A DNA stretch of 40,641 nt. Origin: a virus. A program made the position numbers and the translations under genes. The notes beneath the pieces were generated by a model that ran no database searches, had not been told where the DNA came from, and worked only from the letters and a program-made list of their open reading frames with translations. This document shows, one piece after another, positions 3,482 through 29,385 of the stretch (positions within the stretch are counted from its first letter, which is position 1; the number at the start of each line of letters is the position of its first letter). The stretch lies in the IMG/VR virus record IMGVR_UViG_3300035659_000047, positions 1 through 40,641 of that record; one strand, written 5' to 3'.

Positions 3482-3509
3482 TTGACAAATCTTTCCACCC
3501 GTGTATAAT
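3482..3509 (+). promoter_or_regulatory. Right promoter (PR-like), sigma70-type
   Basis: TTGACA (3482-3487), 16-base spacer and TATAAT (3504-3509), both at consensus, with a start expected at about 3516. It drives the pentapeptide-repeat gene and the long rightward operon. Its spacer and downstream bases closely match the left promoter, so the same repressor probably binds both. Confidence 0.85.
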
Positions 3510-3513
3510 CTAA

Positions 3514-3541
3514 CCATCAACGCCAAGGAGGTTGTTGATGG
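3514..3541 (+). promoter_or_regulatory. Hairpin holding the start codon and presenting the ribosome site
   Basis: CCATCAAC (3514-3521) is the exact complement of GTTGATGG (3534-3541). The 12-base loop contains AAGGAGG, and the ATG at 3538 lies in the 3' arm. As transcription should begin near 3516, this would be at or close to the very 5' end of the mRNA. It could tune translation of the pentapeptide-repeat protein, or the dyad could be an operator. Confidence 0.55.
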
Positions 3542-5411: not shown

Positions 5412-5681
5412 ATGAAACCCCAAAAAGTAAATATTTTAGGAATGGAGTTAGATGAATGGAAGCTTGATTCTTCTGTTGCTCATTTTGGTGTAGGTTCTGA
5501 TTGGGCAACACTTTATGACATTCAAAGTTCAATCAAAGAAAAAGGCCATGCAACAATGCTTTTAAAAGAAGCGAAGAGTTATTACCAATCACAAAACAAA
5601 AAGGTAGGTGGTTCCGTCGCGCTAAATCCAATAATGAGAAAAATCTATAAAAAATTAAATATTAAAGAGTATAAAAAATGA
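5412..5681 (+). CDS. Small GNAT-like acetyltransferase
   Basis: 89 aa. The segment ATLYDIQSSIKEKGHATMLL resembles GNAT motif A: a beta strand, then the pyrophosphate loop (Q/R-x-x-G-x-G/A, here KEKGHA) and the following helix. VALNPIMRKIYKKLNI fits motif B (N-x-x-x-x-x-x-Y). The N-terminal strands of a full GNAT domain are short or missing, so it may be a minimal or degraded enzyme. Its stop overlaps the next start as ATGA. Substrate unknown. Confidence 0.55.
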   Translation: MKPQKVNILGMELDEWKLDSSVAHFGVGSDWATLYDIQSSIKEKGHATMLLKEAKSYYQSQNKKVGGSVALNPIMRKIYKKLNIKEYKK

Positions 5682-6220
5682 AAGATTTAATCAGGGTCTC
5701 CGATGTTTTATCCCCCTACATCGATTTCTCAAAGGTCCCCGATCGATACATGGAGCCCGCCCTGGAGAGAGGTTCGTGGGTTCATCTTTGGAATGCCAAT
5801 TACGCTCGGAAGATTTGGACTCCCGTTAGTCTTGATCAGTATCGAGGGTATATTGAGAGCTTTAGGGGTTGGTTTGACCGATATGTTCAGAAAGTTTTTT
5901 TTGTGGAGCAGGAATTCAAAGACGAAGATTTAGGTTTTTCTGGCAGACCAGATATCGGTTGTTTGCTTCGGGGAGAGACCGAGGGGCTATTGCCAGACTA
6001 CAAAACCTCTACAACAAATCAAAGGTGGTGGATCGGTCAGAGCGCTGCGTATCTTCATCTTGTCAAGAAAGCGGGATTCCCGATTAGTAGGGCTGGATCC
6101 CTCAAGCTAAATCCCGATGGCAGGGCCGCCAAGTTCATTCCTTGCGATGTTCCAAATGAGGCATTTGCAGCGTTTTTATCAGGCCTGAATGCACTGAGAT
6201 ATTTTCGGAGACAAATATGA
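5678..6220 (+). CDS. PD-(D/E)XK exonuclease (Cas4/RecB-like), RecT partner
   Basis: 180 aa. The motif order fits the RecB/Cas4 nuclease branch: RGSWVH at 31-36, an acidic FFVEQEF strand (E77), GRPD at 89-92, DYKTS at 107-111 (the D-x-K core), and QSAAYLHL at 121-128 (the Q-x-x-x-Y motif). It should degrade duplex DNA ends to give single strands for annealing by RecT, encoded 1.2 kb downstream in the same operon. The cysteine cluster of true Cas4 is absent. Start and stop overlap the neighbours as ATGA. Confidence 0.7.
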   Translation: MKDLIRVSDVLSPYIDFSKVPDRYMEPALERGSWVHLWNANYARKIWTPVSLDQYRGYIESFRGWFDRYVQKVFFVEQEFKDEDLGFSGRPDIGCLLRGETEGLLPDYKTSTTNQRWWIGQSAAYLHLVKKAGFPISRAGSLKLNPDGRAAKFIPCDVPNEAFAAFLSGLNALRYFRRQI

Positions 6221-6519: not shown

Positions 6520-7212
6520 ATGGAATTCACAGTATTACCCGAAAAGAAGAAAAAGGAATTGGCTCCGAGGGATCCGTATCCGGCACTCGATCTTGAGAAG
6601 GCAAAAGAACACTTTAGACCCTACATCGAGAAGATCGATGGCATCCTAAAGCAAGCCCAGGATCTCAAGGTTGAGACCGACGAAGCCAACCAAAAAGCTG
6701 TCGAACTCGGGACATCCGCAAAGATTCTGACAAAACAGATCGACGAAACACGAAGCCGGGCAATCAGTGAACCCTATTCTTTCGTCAAATCGGTCAATGG
6801 GTTTGCCAAGATCTTCACGGACAAACTGCTGACGATTGAAAGCCTAATGAAGCAAAAAATCTCCACGTACCGAGTCTTCCAGGAGCAGAGGCGAAGAGAA
6901 GCCCAACTTGCCGCCGACAAAGCAACCGAAGAATTACAGAAAAAACTGAATAAGCAGGCCGAAAAAACAGGGACCGCTCCCGTTCAAATCGAGATGCCCA
7001 TTATCCCCAAACAAGAAGCAGTAACCAGGAGCGAAACGGGATCCAGCTATGGCAGCAAACATTGGACATTTAAAATAATTGATGCGTCACTTGTGCCAAG
7101 AGAATATCTTGTTGTTTCTGAAATCCGGGTCAGGGACGCAATTAAAGGTGGAATCAGAGAGATTAATGGGATTGAAATCTTTGAAGAAAATCGGACGAGT
7201 TTTAGGACATGA
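6520..7212 (+). CDS. RecT-associated coiled-coil protein
   Basis: 230 aa, ATG after AAAGGAGATTTT. Residues 25-150 are a long charged coiled coil (KAKEHFRPYIEKIDGILKQA, later RVFQEQRRREAQLAADKATE). A small C-terminal domain follows (HWTFKIIDASLVPREYLVVS, then IKGGIREINGIEIFEE). This layout is common in uncharacterised phage proteins encoded next to RecT/Erf and single-strand DNA proteins. A role in recombination or DNA-end handling is inferred from position only. Confidence 0.55.
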   Translation: MEFTVLPEKKKKELAPRDPYPALDLEKAKEHFRPYIEKIDGILKQAQDLKVETDEANQKAVELGTSAKILTKQIDETRSRAISEPYSFVKSVNGFAKIFTDKLLTIESLMKQKISTYRVFQEQRRREAQLAADKATEELQKKLNKQAEKTGTAPVQIEMPIIPKQEAVTRSETGSSYGSKHWTFKIIDASLVPREYLVVSEIRVRDAIKGGIREINGIEIFEENRTSFRT

Positions 7213-7358
7213 AAGGAATCAAATCGGAGGATCTTAAGGAATTTGAAGATGCAGATTTTGGTGAAATAGAATCGAAGGCTCCGCCGAGTTTTGGGATTAC
7301 CCAGACAGAACCGGGAGTGGAAGATGGCGAGGCAACCCCTGAGCCTTCGATAAAATAA
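7209..7358 (+). CDS. Small acidic hypothetical protein
   Basis: 49 aa. ATG 7209 overlaps the preceding TGA as ATGA. Strongly acidic (KEFEDADFGEIESKAPP, then EDGEATPEPSIK) and probably disordered. It sits directly before recT, whose ribosome site (GGAGG) lies just after this stop. Function unknown; a nucleic-acid-mimic or regulatory role is possible but unsupported. Confidence 0.55.
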   Translation: MKGIKSEDLKEFEDADFGEIESKAPPSFGITQTEPGVEDGEATPEPSIK

Positions 7359-7373
7359 AAGGAGGAAATTAAC

Positions 7374-8519
7374 ATGGCAGAGCAAAAAGAAAAGAAATCT
7401 TTACCGGGACAGGATATGAGAGATTTATTTTTTGACCCAAAGGTCAGAGGGGCAATCGAGAAAGTAATTCCGCGGCATCTTACCCCTCAAAAACTTCTTC
7501 AGGTGGCCGTTACGGTCGTCCGGCGCAATTATCAACTCATGCAGTGCACAAAACAGAGCCTTCTTTCATCGGTTATGGGCGCGGCCATCCTGGGCTTAGA
7601 ACTTGAGCCAGCATTAGGTCAAGCCTATCTTGTACCTTATCGAAATAAAAAAGGCTTCTTAGAGGCTCAATTAATTCCAGGATACAGGGGTTACATATCT
7701 CTGGCAAGCAGATCCGGAGAGATTCATTCGGTAACAGCGTGTGAGGTTTACACCAAAGACACCTTCGAATATGAACTGGGACTCAATCCTAAGCTAAAAC
7801 ATATCCCCGCAGAGGGAGACAGGGGGGAATTCAGGGGAGCCTATGTTGTCTTTGAACATAAAGAGGGTCCTCCTACATTCGAATATATGTCGAAAGACAG
7901 GATCGACAGGGTGATGAATCGAACCAAATCTAAAGACAAGGATGGCAATATCACGGGGCCCTGGATCACAGATTACGAAGAGATGGCGAAAAAGACTCTA
8001 ATCCGACACCGCGCCAAATATGAACCGATATCGATTGAATTCGCGAAGGCAAGAGAGATTGAAGAAAGGGCGATTATGGGCGAATCGCAACTTGATTTGC
8101 TTCCAGCTCCAGAGGAACCGATCGAAGGCGAGATTTCAGGCGAACCAGAATCCCTGGCATTTGATGAATTAGTGAAGGCGAAAGCCAAAGAGGGAAAGGA
8201 TATCAGTCACCTTAAAGATTTTATTCAGGCGGTTACAGAATCAGTTAAAGGTACTAAGGATGAAGGAAAAGACGTAAAGGTTGAGGCTGCAAAGGATTTT
8301 GATAACTTTTGGGCGATGTATGAGAAATGGATAAAAGACCAACCAAAGATTGAAGAACCCTCTAAGGGCAAACCCGGAAGGAAACTGGGTTCTAAAAATA
8401 AACCCAGAGAAGAAATTGAACAGGGTGAATTCGTAGACTGCCCAGAGAGGGGTCAAAAAGTTCATACAAAGGTTTGTGATTTATGCGAGAAACGCGAGGG
8501 ATGTCCGTCATTTGGATAA
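7374..8519 (+). CDS. recT: RecT-family single-strand annealing protein
   Basis: 381 aa, ATG after AAAAGGAGGAAATTAAC. The RecT core is clear: LTPQKLLQVAVTVVRRN, QSLLSSVMGAAILGLELEP, AYLVPYRNKK, QLIPGYRGYISLASRSGEI, and ITDYEEMAKKTLIRH. It anneals complementary single strands and works with an exonuclease, here the gene at 5678. The protein is longer than typical RecT (about 270 aa). Its extra tail has an acidic linker, an AT-hook-like PGRKLGSKNK, and a final cysteine cluster (CPERGQKVHTKVCDLCEKRE, then C) that could bind zinc. Confidence 0.85.
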   Translation: MAEQKEKKSLPGQDMRDLFFDPKVRGAIEKVIPRHLTPQKLLQVAVTVVRRNYQLMQCTKQSLLSSVMGAAILGLELEPALGQAYLVPYRNKKGFLEAQLIPGYRGYISLASRSGEIHSVTACEVYTKDTFEYELGLNPKLKHIPAEGDRGEFRGAYVVFEHKEGPPTFEYMSKDRIDRVMNRTKSKDKDGNITGPWITDYEEMAKKTLIRHRAKYEPISIEFAKAREIEERAIMGESQLDLLPAPEEPIEGEISGEPESLAFDELVKAKAKEGKDISHLKDFIQAVTESVKGTKDEGKDVKVEAAKDFDNFWAMYEKWIKDQPKIEEPSKGKPGRKLGSKNKPREEIEQGEFVDCPERGQKVHTKVCDLCEKREGCPSFG

Positions 8520-8528
8520 ATGAAGATG

Positions 8529-8745
8529 TGGGCAACCAAGTCGGTGATAACCGAATCAAGCGAGCGAAATAAGGGGAGGCTAAAAACCAAGAGTCTCGCT
8601 GCCTTTAGTTGCCCATAAAGTTTCTGCCCCTGCATTGAGGGCATCTTAGGGGTGTGATGAACTCCGACTTAGGCCCCAAATATCCAGAGACCAAAATGAG
8701 TGTCTCTAAGGGGGGAGATGAGCGACCTGAACAGGGGCAGAGAAA
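8529..8745 (+). ncRNA. Candidate structured RNA downstream of recT
   Basis: About 240 bases without a convincing gene show several exact helices. P1 is TGGGCAAC (8529-8536) with GTTGCCCA (8608-8615). Inside it, P2 is TCGG/CCGA (8541-8544/8551-8554) and P3 is AGCGAG/CTCGCT (8559-8564/8595-8600), giving a closed three-way junction. A second domain is closed by CTGCCCCTG (8624-8632) with CAGGGGCAG (8732-8740), extendable by three pairs. It contains AGAGAC/GTCTCT (8686-8691/8702-8707) and GGGG/CCCC (8649-8652/8674-8677). It ends just before the ribosome site of the next gene, so it may be a cis-acting leader or a separate RNA. I recognise no known riboswitch. Confidence 0.5.
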
Positions 8746-8759
8746 GTAGGAGGTGAGAA

Positions 8760-8888
8760 ATGTTTGAGTGGCTAAAGAAACATTCAGGTCATACACTAAT
8801 TATTGAGGTTTACTATGATGTAATGAAAACTTTCCATTGTAGGTGTGTGACCTGTGAAGAAAGTGATAAATTTGATTTCCTAAAATGA
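8760..8888 (+). CDS. Small cysteine-containing hypothetical protein
   Basis: 42 aa. ATG 8760 follows an excellent ribosome site (AGGAGGTGAGAA). The sequence ends with FHCRCVTCEESDKFDFLK; the C-x-C-x2-C cluster could bind a metal. The first half, MFEWLKKHSGHTLIIEVYYD, is beta-like. First of a string of tiny genes after the structured RNA. Unknown function. Confidence 0.55.
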   Translation: MFEWLKKHSGHTLIIEVYYDVMKTFHCRCVTCEESDKFDFLK

Positions 8889-8900
8889 GACAGGGTCGGT

Positions 8901-8992
8901 GGCTGGTCGCAAAGCGAGAAAGCCAATTACTCACACCAAGAAAGCAGGATAAAATGAAAGTCTCGATGGTGGTAGACAGCAGGTAATCCTGC
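8901..8992 (+). other. Intercistronic hairpins between tiny genes
   Basis: Two hairpins lie in the 130-base gap. One is GGCT (8901-8904) with AGCC (8921-8924), enclosing TCGC-AAA-GCGA (8907-8917). The other is GCAGG-TAAT-CCTGC (8979-8992). No gene with a ribosome site fits here. The second hairpin lies just ahead of the AAGGAGG of the 29-aa gene. Confidence 0.45.
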
Positions 8993-9020
8993 CCGATCCT
9001 GCCTGAAGGAGGTGATGTAA

Positions 9021-9110
9021 ATGCAAGACAACTTGAGAATGACAATTACTCCACATTATTGTACGAATCCGAGAACGGATGGTTCTTGTGGTTGTGGTTT
9101 GTTTCAATAG
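9021..9110 (+). CDS. Tiny cysteine-containing protein
   Basis: 29 aa. ATG 9021 follows a near-perfect ribosome site (AAGGAGGTGATGTAA). The short chain starts MQDNLRMTITPHYCTNPRTD and closes with SCGCGLFQ, giving three cysteines. It is flanked on both sides by hairpins. Too short for a family call; the strong ribosome site is the main support. Confidence 0.45.
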   Translation: MQDNLRMTITPHYCTNPRTDGSCGCGLFQ

Positions 9111-9144
9111 TCGCAGGGGGCATAACTGAGTGAGCATCCTGCGA
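9111..9144 (+). other. Hairpin before the 102-aa gene
   Basis: TCGCAGG (9111-9117) pairs perfectly with CCTGCGA (9138-9144) around a 20-base loop. The 5' arm starts directly after the stop codon of the tiny 29-aa gene, and the 3' arm abuts AAGGAGGGG of the next gene. It is probably an RNA processing or translation-control element. Confidence 0.45.
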
Positions 9145-9155
9145 AGGAGGGGAAG

Positions 9156-9464
9156 ATGAAAAATATGCAATGGAACTTAGAAAATGGAAAAAGGATATTA
9201 GTTAATTTGGATAGAATAGATGCAGTAATAGAACATGGGACAAATCCTAAAACTCAGACGGTAATTTGTTTTGGATCAGAGGAATATACAATTTTAGGTT
9301 CCTATGACGAGATTATAAGACACATTCCATCTGCCTATTTCGAAGCCCACTCCCGACGGCAGGAGGAGATTGAGAAGTTGAAGAATGCTCTTCGATATAC
9401 ATTGAAGTATGGCAATCTACAGGGAATGGAAGAAGAAACAAAAAAGCTCTTAGACGAAACCTGA
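9156..9464 (+). CDS. Hypothetical protein
   Basis: 102 aa, ATG after GAAGGAGGGGAAG. The first 60 residues are beta-rich (LVNLDRIDAVIEH, VICFGSEEYTILGSYDEIIR), similar in style to small phage proteins with a short beta-barrel fold. The last 40 are a charged helix (RRQEEIEKLKNALRYTL). No family recognised. Confidence 0.55.
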   Translation: MKNMQWNLENGKRILVNLDRIDAVIEHGTNPKTQTVICFGSEEYTILGSYDEIIRHIPSAYFEAHSRRQEEIEKLKNALRYTLKYGNLQGMEEETKKLLDET

Positions 9465-9492
9465 CCGCATGGTGAGAGGGAAAGGGAAAGAG

Positions 9493-9654
9493 ATGAATTG
9501 GAATCCAAATGATAGACAAAAGAAATTTTTAGAGACTATTATTGTAATGTCTACTGATTGTATTATGGGAAAAGGAACGGCAAATATAGAAACCTATCTT
9601 TCAAATCTTCGTATCATGGCAGATATGATCGAGAAGAAGGAGATTGAAGTATGA
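9493..9654 (+). CDS. Small hypothetical protein
   Basis: 53 aa from ATG 9493, chosen because the purine-rich GAGAGGGAAAGGGAAAGAG lies directly before it. An in-frame ATG at 9469 has no ribosome site. MNWNPNDRQKKFLETIIVMS is followed by helical sequence ending EKKEIEV. The stop overlaps the next gene's ATG. Unknown function. Confidence 0.5.
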   Translation: MNWNPNDRQKKFLETIIVMSTDCIMGKGTANIETYLSNLRIMADMIEKKEIEV

Positions 9655-10619: not shown

Positions 10620-10833
10620 TGAGAATGCATTCTCACAAGAGTTAAACAGAGAACAAAGGATTTGTGCTTGTGGTTGTGGTGAAGTCTTTATTTATACCCG
10701 AAAATGGCAGAAATACCTCAACAAAGAGCACAGAAAAAAAGGCTTTGAGAGTAGACCGAGAATTAATAAGGTAAAGGTAGATCGACTTCAGAAACTCCTA
10801 AATGAAGCCTCCGAGATATTGGAAACCCTATGA
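10573..10833 (+). CDS. Small CxCGC zinc-knuckle-like protein
   Basis: 86 aa from ATG 10573 (AAGGAATTT upstream); the ATG at 10597 is an alternative without a ribosome site. RICACGCGEVFIYTRKWQKY followed by LNKEH resembles the phage 'CxCGCG-F...' knuckle, in which the second metal pair (normally CS-x2-C) is replaced by N-K-E-H. The C-terminus is a leucine-rich helix. It overlaps its upstream neighbour by 47 bases. Possibly DNA-binding. Confidence 0.5.
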   Translation: MLVVSVIVMKNNPQNDENAFSQELNREQRICACGCGEVFIYTRKWQKYLNKEHRKKGFESRPRINKVKVDRLQKLLNEASEILETL

Positions 10834-10895
10834 ACTTGACACCTTCCTTTCCCTTTGATAGATTTGTCCTCATTCCAACGGAGGAGGGGACAAGC

Positions 10896-12035
10896 ATGAA
10901 GGGGGGAGTCTATAAGCATAGGGCTGGTTATAGGGTCTATTTCAGGGGGCAATGGTTTCACAAAGACGAACATGGGCGACCATTCAGGGCCGAATTCTAC
11001 GCCTGGGCATTCCTTGAGCATTTGAATGCCCTTTATGATCCAGATCCGGCCAAGAATCGTTACGATCCTTCGAGGTTCAAAGACAAGACACCCTACAAAT
11101 TCGATGAGGCCTTTGAACTCTACCTTGACCGGAGGCAGACCGACTCCGGGTGGCATAAGGCAAAGGAATGGACCTGGAAGAAGTATTTTCAACCGTTCTT
11201 TGCCAACCAGGACTTTAGGACGATTGACCAAGTTCAATTGGAGGGATTCCAAAAATGGTTAAAAGAAAAAAATCTACAGGGGAAATCCATCAAGAATGTT
11301 ATGGGGATACTACACGGATTTCTGACCCACTTCAAGAGTACCTTGAACCTTTTTCCTACCTTTCCCGCAATAAATTATCAACAAAAAAGAATAAAATGGT
11401 TCACCGAAAAAGAACTCGATGAAGTCTTTGAATTCATAAACGAGCAGGACAGGGGATACTTTTTATTCATCCGCTATTATGGGGTTCGACCAGAAGAGGC
11501 AAGCGGATTGCTTCGAAGTGCGGTCAATTGGGAGACAAGGCAGATCATAATCTCATCCGTCTATGTCGACGGGAAGATTAAGGCCCGAACCAAGACTAAC
11601 CGAGAAAGAGTGTTGCCGATTATCCCAGAAGTCGGGTTGATGACCGAAATGGTGGGAGAAGGAACGGAGGCACAGGGGAAAGACCTGATACCCGAACGGC
11701 CTATGCACTCCAGGGCGTATCCGTTACGTCGCCCTGCTCAACCCGATTCAATCTTTGTCTTTTCAGTCAACGGCCATCCCTATACCCGCCACATCAGAGA
11801 GAACCGATGGAATAGGGCGATGAAACAGGCTATCAAAAAATACGCAACCCGACCGATGACGCTCCGGGATCTCCGAAGTTCAGCGGGATCCCGGTGGAGA
11901 AAGGCAGGGATGCCCATAGAGGACATCAGCCAACTCTTAGGCCACTCAAAGATCGAGATGACCAAAGAACGATATGCGGACCAGGCTCAAGATAATCTTG
12001 TGCCGATTATGAGGGGAATAAATGAAAGAAAATGA
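10896..12035 (+). CDS. int: Tyrosine recombinase (phage integrase)
   Basis: 379 aa from ATG 10896, chosen because GGAGGAGGGG lies six bases upstream and MKGGVYKHRAGYRVYFRG is a typical integrase start; an ATG at 10830 would add 22 residues. After the arm-binding N-terminus comes a SAM-like core-binding domain (about 80-180). Next is the catalytic domain: Arg I in FIRYYGVRPEEASGLL, Lys in ARTKTNRERVLPI, box II as TLRDLRSS (Arg where His is usual in HxxR), LGHS, and the nucleophile Tyr in TKERYA. It integrates the phage at attP, which lies directly downstream. Confidence 0.85.
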   Translation: MKGGVYKHRAGYRVYFRGQWFHKDEHGRPFRAEFYAWAFLEHLNALYDPDPAKNRYDPSRFKDKTPYKFDEAFELYLDRRQTDSGWHKAKEWTWKKYFQPFFANQDFRTIDQVQLEGFQKWLKEKNLQGKSIKNVMGILHGFLTHFKSTLNLFPTFPAINYQQKRIKWFTEKELDEVFEFINEQDRGYFLFIRYYGVRPEEASGLLRSAVNWETRQIIISSVYVDGKIKARTKTNRERVLPIIPEVGLMTEMVGEGTEAQGKDLIPERPMHSRAYPLRRPAQPDSIFVFSVNGHPYTRHIRENRWNRAMKQAIKKYATRPMTLRDLRSSAGSRWRKAGMPIEDISQLLGHSKIEMTKERYADQAQDNLVPIMRGINERK

Positions 12036-20392: not shown

Positions 20393-21724
20393 TTAGTTCA
20401 CCTGTATCCCCCATTCAGATAATGCCTGAAGTACTCTTTCTGCCTTTCGAGGGCCATCAGTTCGATATTGCATATAGCTTCCGATTTTTAATCTTTTTAT
20501 ATTTTGATAAACTCTACCCCAGGCCTCTCCAAGACTTTCGCCCCTGCCAGTAATAACACCCAAAACGCCATCGCTTCCGGCACAGGCAAGGTCCCTGCCA
20601 TTCCCATAGACATCCTCCATCCAGAAATAAGGGAAATCGTCAATCTTACCTTCTATCGGAACGTCCTTTGCGAAATCCTCAAGAAGCTCTTTCCCCAAAT
20701 AAGGATACGGCGGGATCGATATCCTCGAAGAACTCGCATACCCATTCTGAAAATCAACCTTAAAGTCCTTCAAAAAGAAATTCTTCAAAGGTCCCTTCAC
20801 AAGACTCAACAGACAGAAAAGAGCGTCATACCCGAATCTCGGTGTAAACTCCAAAAAACAGGGTTTGTGATCCTCTTCCGAAACAATGCAGTTGAAATCA
20901 ACCGGTCCTATGTAATTGGCCTCTTTCAGAAATGGAACTATTTTTTTGATTTCGTTCAGAAGAAAATCGCTCTGTTTTTTTACCCAGACAGTATTATTCT
21001 GACTTCCGATCGCGGGTCCCAGATTGTTATTCATCAACCTTTTTTCCTCTACCGTGTGATTAAAATGAACAAAATCCTTCCCGTCAAACCAGCCTTCAGT
21101 ATCTATTTCAACGCCATCAATAACTTTCTGCAGAATATACTCAAATTTATCTGAATCGAGTCTTGAGGGAAGTTCCCCTTGCATTTTGGCGAAGACCTCC
21201 CCGGGATACTTTTCGACGTAGGTTAGATCAATGGCCTGATTGCCAAAGGGCTTCAGAACCCAGAGGTCATGTTTGCCCTTCAAAAACGCTTTCCCTTCTT
21301 CAAGGTTTTTGAATTCATGAGCCTCCGGGATCGAAAGCCCTATTTTTTTGGCAAGATCAGAACCTTTTTTTCGGTCCATCTCAATTTCTTCTGTAAAGGT
21401 CGAAGCTCCCATAACCTTGACGTGCTTCTTTAATTTATCGGCAATAGGGCCAAAAACGTAGTCGCTACCTGTTTTGACCCCGAACATTTTTAGAACGGCG
21501 ATATCCTGCTTTTCCTTCCGATTCGGTCTGGTAATGTCGAAAATCACCATTTCAGCCTTGAATGCCTTTTTCCTCAGTTCCCCTATTGAAACCTTTTCGA
21601 GAATTCCATCGTAGTCACGTCTGCAATCGGGAGAATGAATATAGACCTGGCAATCCAAACCTTCTTTTTTTAGCCTGTAGGCAATGGGTAAAGATTCCCC
21701 TGAGTTTGAGATAAATAAAATCAC
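20393..21724 (-). CDS. ATP-grasp ligase, PurD-like
   Basis: 443 aa from GTG 21724, which overlaps the preceding TGA as GTGA. Rossmann-like start ILFISNSGESLPIAYRLKKE; ATP-grasp core with DLAKKIGLSIPEAHEF, DLWVLKPFGNQA, ILQKVIDGVEIDTEGW, and the metal-binding GPVDFNCI and FLEFTPRFGYDA. The last is typical of phosphoribosylamine-glycine ligase and related carboxylate-amine ligases. A classic PurD role is unlikely in a virion operon. It may ligate an amino group to a virion or cell-surface target, with the adjacent GNAT-like protein. Substrate not deducible. Confidence 0.7.
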   Translation of the reverse strand: MILFISNSGESLPIAYRLKKEGLDCQVYIHSPDCRRDYDGILEKVSIGELRKKAFKAEMVIFDITRPNRKEKQDIAVLKMFGVKTGSDYVFGPIADKLKKHVKVMGASTFTEEIEMDRKKGSDLAKKIGLSIPEAHEFKNLEEGKAFLKGKHDLWVLKPFGNQAIDLTYVEKYPGEVFAKMQGELPSRLDSDKFEYILQKVIDGVEIDTEGWFDGKDFVHFNHTVEEKRLMNNNLGPAIGSQNNTVWVKKQSDFLLNEIKKIVPFLKEANYIGPVDFNCIVSEEDHKPCFLEFTPRFGYDALFCLLSLVKGPLKNFFLKDFKVDFQNGYASSSRISIPPYPYLGKELLEDFAKDVPIEGKIDDFPYFWMEDVYGNGRDLACAGSDGVLGVITGRGESLGEAWGRVYQNIKRLKIGSYMQYRTDGPRKAERVLQALSEWGIQVN

Positions 21725-26692: not shown

Positions 26693-26714
26693 GGCCCCGG
26701 ATTTAACCGGGGCC
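26693..26714. other. Perfect GC-rich hairpin, copy 1
   Basis: GGCCCCGG-ATTTAA-CCGGGGCC, an 8-bp perfect stem with a 6-base loop. On the minus strand it is followed by TAATTTTCT, a weak terminator-like tail. The identical 22 bases recur at 27105-27126, on the other side of the 114-aa gene. Confidence 0.8.
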
Positions 26715-27104: not shown

Positions 27105-27126
27105 GGCCCCGGATTTAACCGGGGCC
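27105..27126. other. Perfect GC-rich hairpin, copy 2
   Basis: Identical to 26693-26714 (GGCCCCGG-ATTTAA-CCGGGGCC), here extended by AGCt/aGGCT flanks. It lies in the 71-base gap between coat and accessory genes. No T run follows on the minus strand, so RNA processing or partial termination is more likely than full termination. Confidence 0.8.
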
Positions 27127-28910: not shown

Positions 28911-29093
28911 TTATTCGCCCTTTTTCTCTTCAGTTTGTTTTTCTTTCTTCTTCACTTCTCCCCGAAAGGATTCACCTTCGAGATAGCAATAGTGGAGATA
29001 TTCGTCTGGTCCCAAACCATGATGTTTTGAGGGACCCGAAACTGTCCGAATTCTTCCTCCGTTCCTTTGGCATTTTTCAAAATCTGCTGGCAT
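28911..29093 (-). CDS. Small phage protein of a widespread unknown family
   Basis: 60 aa, ATG after AAAGGAGATTCAA. FEKCQRNGGRIRTVSGPS, YLHYCYLEGESFRGEVKKKE match the style of small phage proteins 'F--C---GG-vRT----...yihvCy--GksyrGEVk'. The tail is Lys/Glu-rich. It is the first gene after a pair of terminators, and about 115 bases without a clear gene separate it from the scaffold gene. Confidence 0.55.
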   Translation of the reverse strand: MPADFEKCQRNGGRIRTVSGPSKHHGLGPDEYLHYCYLEGESFRGEVKKKEKQTEEKKGE

Positions 29094-29118
29094 TTGAATC
29101 TCCTTTTACCCAAAAAGA

Positions 29119-29155
29119 AAAGCCGACCCTGTGCCGTGCGCACGGAATCGGCTTT
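29119..29155. terminator. Bidirectional terminator ahead of the capsid genes
   Basis: AAAGCCGA (29119-29126) pairs with TCGGCTTT (29148-29155), with an inner palindrome CCGTGCGCACGG. T-rich tails follow on both strands (CTTTTTCTTTTT on plus, TTTTCTTTTT on minus). It may reduce read-through from upstream genes into the scaffold/coat segment. Confidence 0.7.
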
Positions 29156-29173
29156 CTTTTTCTTTTTGGGATA

Positions 29174-29200
29174 CCTTCGTCGCGAACGAAGGATTTTTTT
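29174..29200 (+). terminator. Plus-strand Rho-independent terminator
   Basis: CCTTCGT-CGCGA-ACGAAGG followed by ATTTTTTT. It is oriented rightward, against the local genes, so it would stop antisense transcription coming through the capsid genes. Confidence 0.65.
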
Positions 29201-29217
29201 ATTTAAAGAATTTTATT

Positions 29218-29385
29218 CTACTTTCTTCTTCTCCTTCTAAAAAATAGATAATCAAAAATATGGGATTCTGTTATAATGGGGGCGGAATCCAATAATCCCC
29301 AAGAACAATAATGGGCTGCCATTTGTTCACCGCTTATGAGACCCGCTCCATAAAACCAACCTCCGGCAAATGGCAGATAATTCAT
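29218..29385 (-). CDS. Small protein, downstream member of a tandem pair
   Basis: 55 aa. ATG 29385 overlaps the TGA of the upstream paralogue (ATGA) after CAGGAGGCTTAGGGG. MNYLPFAGGWFYGAGLISGE aligns well with the upstream paralogue's start; both share CSWGLL and API. The C-terminus differs: here it is polar, ending in a basic FFRRRRRK run. The two arose by duplication. Function unknown; short aromatic-rich structural or membrane-linked proteins are possible. Confidence 0.6.
   Translation of the reverse strand: MNYLPFAGGWFYGAGLISGEQMAAHYCSWGLLDSAPIITESHIFDYLFFRRRRRK

Follow-up and report, generated by a model that had tools for sequence, protein, structure and literature searches.

Does the gap between a phage recT gene and the tiny gene that follows it encode a structured RNA, and if so, what would such an RNA do there? 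The question arises in an uncultured virus whose whole IMG/VR record, 40,641 bases long, is the window analysed here. An earlier note on this DNA had described two adjacent folded domains at 8529-8745, with no good gene in the interval and no known riboswitch, intron or large phage RNA recognised in it. We find that the spacer at 8520-8745 is a genuine but unproven candidate for a structured RNA, its folds being modelled from a single genome. The structured unit is also wider than first described, as two further structured spacers lie downstream.

The recT locus and its neighbours

All genes around the spacer region point rightward. An exonuclease-like gene (5678-6220, + strand; PHROG 298) and a second gene (6520-7212, +) precede recT (7374..8519, +), which encodes a RecT-family single-strand annealing protein of 381 aa (Pfam PF03837, E=1.7e-41); small genes follow, and then a tyrosine-type integrase (10830-12035). 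The best full-length match of this RecT is that of Methanosarcina virus MetMV, with 41-44% identity over its length, and among annotated phages vir555 of Methanomicrobiales has the most similar terminase (58%). The archaeal host to which these two likenesses could point was set aside in view of a sigma-70 promoter of perfect consensus (TTGACA, 16 nt, TATAAT) at 3482-3509, standing before a pentapeptide-repeat-like gene at 3538. Because of this promoter, a bacterial host is suggested, and the virus is a tailed phage, probably of a bacterium.

Directly 3' of the second folded domain lies the strong Shine-Dalgarno (SD) sequence TAGGAGGT (8747..8754, +) of a 42-aa micro-ORF (8760..8888, +), which has an intermediate codon score, no Pfam match, no known homologue and a single weak PHROG match (E=0.049). 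The 29-aa micro-ORF that comes next (9021..9110, +) also carries a strong SD and is uncertain; its codon score is not coding-like and tblastn returned no significant match to it. The first well-supported gene past the structured stretch is a hypothetical one of 102 aa (9156..9464, +), with a coding-like codon score and no homologue found in our searches.

Predicted folds of three successive spacers

In the predicted fold of 8520-8745, the closing helices of both domains dominate, as the earlier note had proposed, and they persist at pair probabilities of ~0.8-1.0 inside an 870-nt context (8380-9250). Domain 1 (8527..8617, +) is closed by helix P1 (8529-8536/8608-8615, extending to 8527/8617; 0.82-1.0) and contains hairpin P2 (8541-8545/8550-8554; 0.86-0.99). 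The three-way junction first drawn for this domain is thus retained in P1 and P2 but not in P3 (8559-8564/8595-8600), whose pair probability is just 0.12-0.14; competing helices at 0.2-0.47, all below 0.5, share the mixed interior at 8560-8607, and the junction is predicted to be one among several inner folds, not the dominant one. Domain 2 (8621..8743, +) likewise keeps its outline: the closing helix 8621-8632/8732-8743 (10 perfect bp, 12 including G-U; 0.79-1.0) surrounds 99 nt, and the hairpin 8686-8692/8700-8707 is predicted at 0.69-0.99, but the interior is otherwise a mixture of folds (~0.55).

The second spacer is predicted to adopt a cloverleaf-like four-way junction (8891..9001, +), in which a 9-bp closing helix (8891-8899/8993-9001) encloses arms at 8900-8925, 8930-8975 and 8979-8992, with all helices at 0.76-1.0; its closing helix, too, holds at ~0.8-1.0 in the 870-nt context. 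In a folding scan of 676 plus-strand windows, the one at 8881-9000 ranked second by structure, and the modelling marks this spacer (8889-9004) as a better-defined and better structured-RNA candidate than 8520-8745. The third spacer holds a hairpin of ~8 bp (CGCAGG...CCTGCG; 9111..9143, +) immediately 5' of the 102-aa gene's SD. In all three cases the structure stops a few bases 5' of a strong SD (AGGAGGT, AGGAGGT and AGGAGGG, respectively).

How unusual these folds are was judged by comparing folding energies with those of dinucleotide shuffles, with spacer boundaries running from stop codon to SD and hence not picked by structure. The spacer at 8520-8745 has an MFE of -78.6 and a z-score of -3.3 (1 of 1000 shuffles as good), repeated at -3.2 (1 of 600); its two parts, 8520-8617 and 8618-8745, score -2.6 and -2.9. 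This score varies with the boundaries chosen, and the longer interval 8520-8760 gives a weaker z of -2.3 (3 of 200 shuffles). The cloverleaf spacer reaches -3.95 (repeat -4.12) and the hairpin spacer -2.2 (repeat -2.4), while the micro-ORFs between the spacers, at -1.6 and -0.3, show no unusual structure. The spacers are also richer in G+C, at 50-61%, than the 42-aa ORF (32%) or the window as a whole (42%). Each spacer alone is suggestive; the unusual thing is the run of three consecutive structured stop-to-SD spacers. A lone 10-bp stem is not remarkable, as perfect stems of such span number 10 in the window and 6.2 +/- 2.5 in shuffles. Folding of the minus strand is no worse and can be better (8520-8745 scores z -4.3), so folding settles neither the strand nor whether the element acts as RNA; gene direction suggests the plus strand.

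Most other intergenic gaps in the window are unstructured, and structured spacers are therefore not a general design of this genome. A few other sites do fold. An identical perfect 22-nt hairpin (GGCCCCGGTTAAATCCGGGGCC) occurs in two successive late-operon spacers at 26695-26712 (-) and 27107-27124 (-); the window holds no further copy, and a slightly degenerate form was unmatched in 200 loci. At 29050-29260, a very strong hairpin is flanked by A/T-rich sequence and adjoined by a second one (z -3.9 on the plus strand, -5.3 on the minus strand), and probably represents a terminator or else a structured leader; a terminator-like hairpin was noted at 29109-29170. The segment 21241-21360, third in rank among the 120-nt plus-strand windows (z -5.7), lies antisense to the gene at 20393-21724.

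Relatives, coding potential and competing explanations

No relative of the element came to light. A cmscan of the whole window against Rfam, the comparison that the earlier note had proposed, gave no match at gathering score, and a permissive scan of 7300-9500 returned chance-level matches only; together with a fold that beats its shuffles (z -3.2 to -3.3), this agrees with the view that the element belongs to no known family. ARAGORN found no tRNA or tmRNA gene in the window. Homologues were likewise absent from blastn of the region against phages and plasmids, from searches of IMG/VR with DNA patterns, from the records of terminase and RecT relatives, and from a DNA search of 395 genomes of one phylum, and tblastn with the neighbouring proteins led to none either. 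Six recT relatives, MetMV among them, carry homologues of the exonuclease-like gene, the 6520-7212 gene or both before recT, and in none of the six was a counterpart of the spacer found 3' of it; the coverage of two near-identical contigs excludes the spacer region. Covariance models, each built from the single sequence of one of the three elements, found no paralogue within the window and no match among 78 related loci other than one at E 0.28, treated as chance, and the cloverleaf model matched nothing in the 395 genomes. Other short matches were also attributed to chance: three viral-contig hits to a P1-P2 DNA pattern, in other phages where the fold does not follow; a 15-nt match in a terminase relative; and three hits in the 395 genomes (E 0.001-0.006 per genome), all within long ORFs. 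Literature searches yielded no directly comparable element. As no homologue was found, covariation speaks neither for nor against the spacer fold.

Could the spacers instead be micro-genes with poor conservation, or remnants of coding sequence, whose good folding is accidental? Three plus-strand frames invite the idea by their placement: a weak 32-aa ORF (8520-8618) starts directly after the recT stop (TAAATG), a weak 31-aa ORF (8654-8749) has its end within the SD that follows, and a 33-aa ORF (8885-8986) shares bases with the stop before it (ATGA). Codon use in 8654-8749 is coding-like, exceeded by just 1.6% of null segments, with an SD that is weak at best, and that in 8520-8618 is intermediate; yet all three frames lack a strong SD, the antisense frames do not score as coding, and z-scores of -3 to -4 are rare among coding segments (z<=-3 in 1 of 60 controls of 226 nt; z<=-3.5 in 3 of 200 controls of 116 nt). 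The 33-aa frame, screened for conserved counterparts, matched nothing in plasmids and viral contigs. A gene at 8654-8749 is possible, one at 8520-8618 doubtful, and antisense genes are unlikely. The first impression that no good gene occupies the interval therefore holds in that no gene there is convincing, and gives way in that two weak micro-ORFs (8520-8618 and 8654-8749) are compatible with codon usage; as an account of the spacers as a whole, we regard the micro-gene explanation as unlikely, if worth keeping in view.

Also unlikely is a role for the spacers as a source of small stable RNAs, which would be cut from the early transcript and target mRNAs or proteins of host or phage in trans. 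The compact cloverleaf and the self-contained domains 1 and 2 would suit such a role, but no promoter or terminator of their own is conspicuous, the counts of such sites being near the shuffled mean, and every element sits exactly between closely spaced genes. Chance structure draws some force from the ~6 stems of 10 bp and such span in each shuffled window, from coding segments that occasionally reach similar z-scores, and from a first reading that scanned 40 kb by eye; against it stand three successive, naturally bounded spacers that are structured, two of them at about 1 in 1000 shuffles, and their raised G+C, which together make chance distinctly improbable. The inverted repeats might rather work as DNA, at a replication origin, in recombination or at some other single-strand DNA site beside recT. 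RecT acts on single-stranded DNA, and the two strands fold about equally well; the repeats, on the other hand, are placed precisely between stops and SDs in three successive spacers, with neither iterons nor a striking skew change seen at the site, and we consider a DNA-level role very unlikely. The least probable explanation by our reckoning is a ligand-sensing riboswitch, or a protein-binding leader, for the downstream tiny genes. A multi-branched domain does lie directly 5' of a gene and the mixed interior at 8560-8607 could be bistable, but the plus strand of 8520-8745 offers no terminator-like site, no alternative pairing between a domain and the SD was identified, no known aptamer is matched and no recognisable metabolic gene follows; the ligand sensing entertained in the earlier note thus finds no support.

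A proposed role as structured intercistronic spacers in a phage mRNA

We favour, tentatively and with somewhat less than even confidence, a reading in which the spacers at 8520-8745, 8889-9004 and 9111-9143 would be cis-acting, structured intercistronic elements of a polycistronic phage mRNA. A rightward, probably early transcript would carry all three, each forming its closed domain or domains from the stop of one gene to just before the SD of the next. We envision that such rigid domains would uncouple the tiny genes from ribosomes as these leave the gene upstream, each micro-ORF then being translated from its own SD, and that they would also shield or define RNA ends as barriers to processing or decay. 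Support comes from the stop-to-SD spacers scoring -3.3, -3.95 and -2.2 against -1.6 and -0.3 for the intervening ORFs, from the strong SD directly after each spacer with no terminator-like site inside on the plus strand, and from the recurrence of structured spacers in the same genome, namely the late-operon hairpin. The cis-acting reading is weakened in that our searches found no homologue, folding is no worse on the minus strand, spacer sequence is also covered in part by weak micro-ORFs, and the long-context fold predicts pairing of the SD that serves the 42-aa ORF. That the spacers represent a novel type of RNA module in phage operons, with serial multi-branched domains, a cloverleaf among them, placed after each stop to organise processing and independent translation of micro-ORFs, seems to us quite unlikely. 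If real, the elements would be orphan structured intercistronic RNAs from a little-known group of environmental tailed phages, and would indicate that elaborate RNA domains can stand between the micro-ORFs of a phage.

Structured-RNA motifs from comparative genomics (e.g. PMC2864571) resemble the candidate in being non-coding, structured and outside Rfam; they are based on homologue comparison, whereas the present candidate is a single-genome orphan. In shape only, the element at 8891-9001 recalls the tRNA cloverleaf, with a closing stem, three arms and a 3' arm abutting the closing stem; it differs in its 9-bp closing stem, the 4-nt loop of its 3' arm and its length of 111 nt, and is not called by ARAGORN. 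The put RNA antiterminator of phage HK022, which consists of two hairpins near an early promoter, is likewise a cis-acting structured RNA of a phage early transcript, whereas the elements described here come after recT, far into the operon, and no adjoining promoter is convincing. In the early genes of T7, the intercistronic RNase III processing sites are long irregular hairpins. These, too, lie as structured elements between one early gene and the next on a polycistronic phage mRNA; the elements predicted here would differ in being multi-branched closed domains with closing stems of 9-12 bp.
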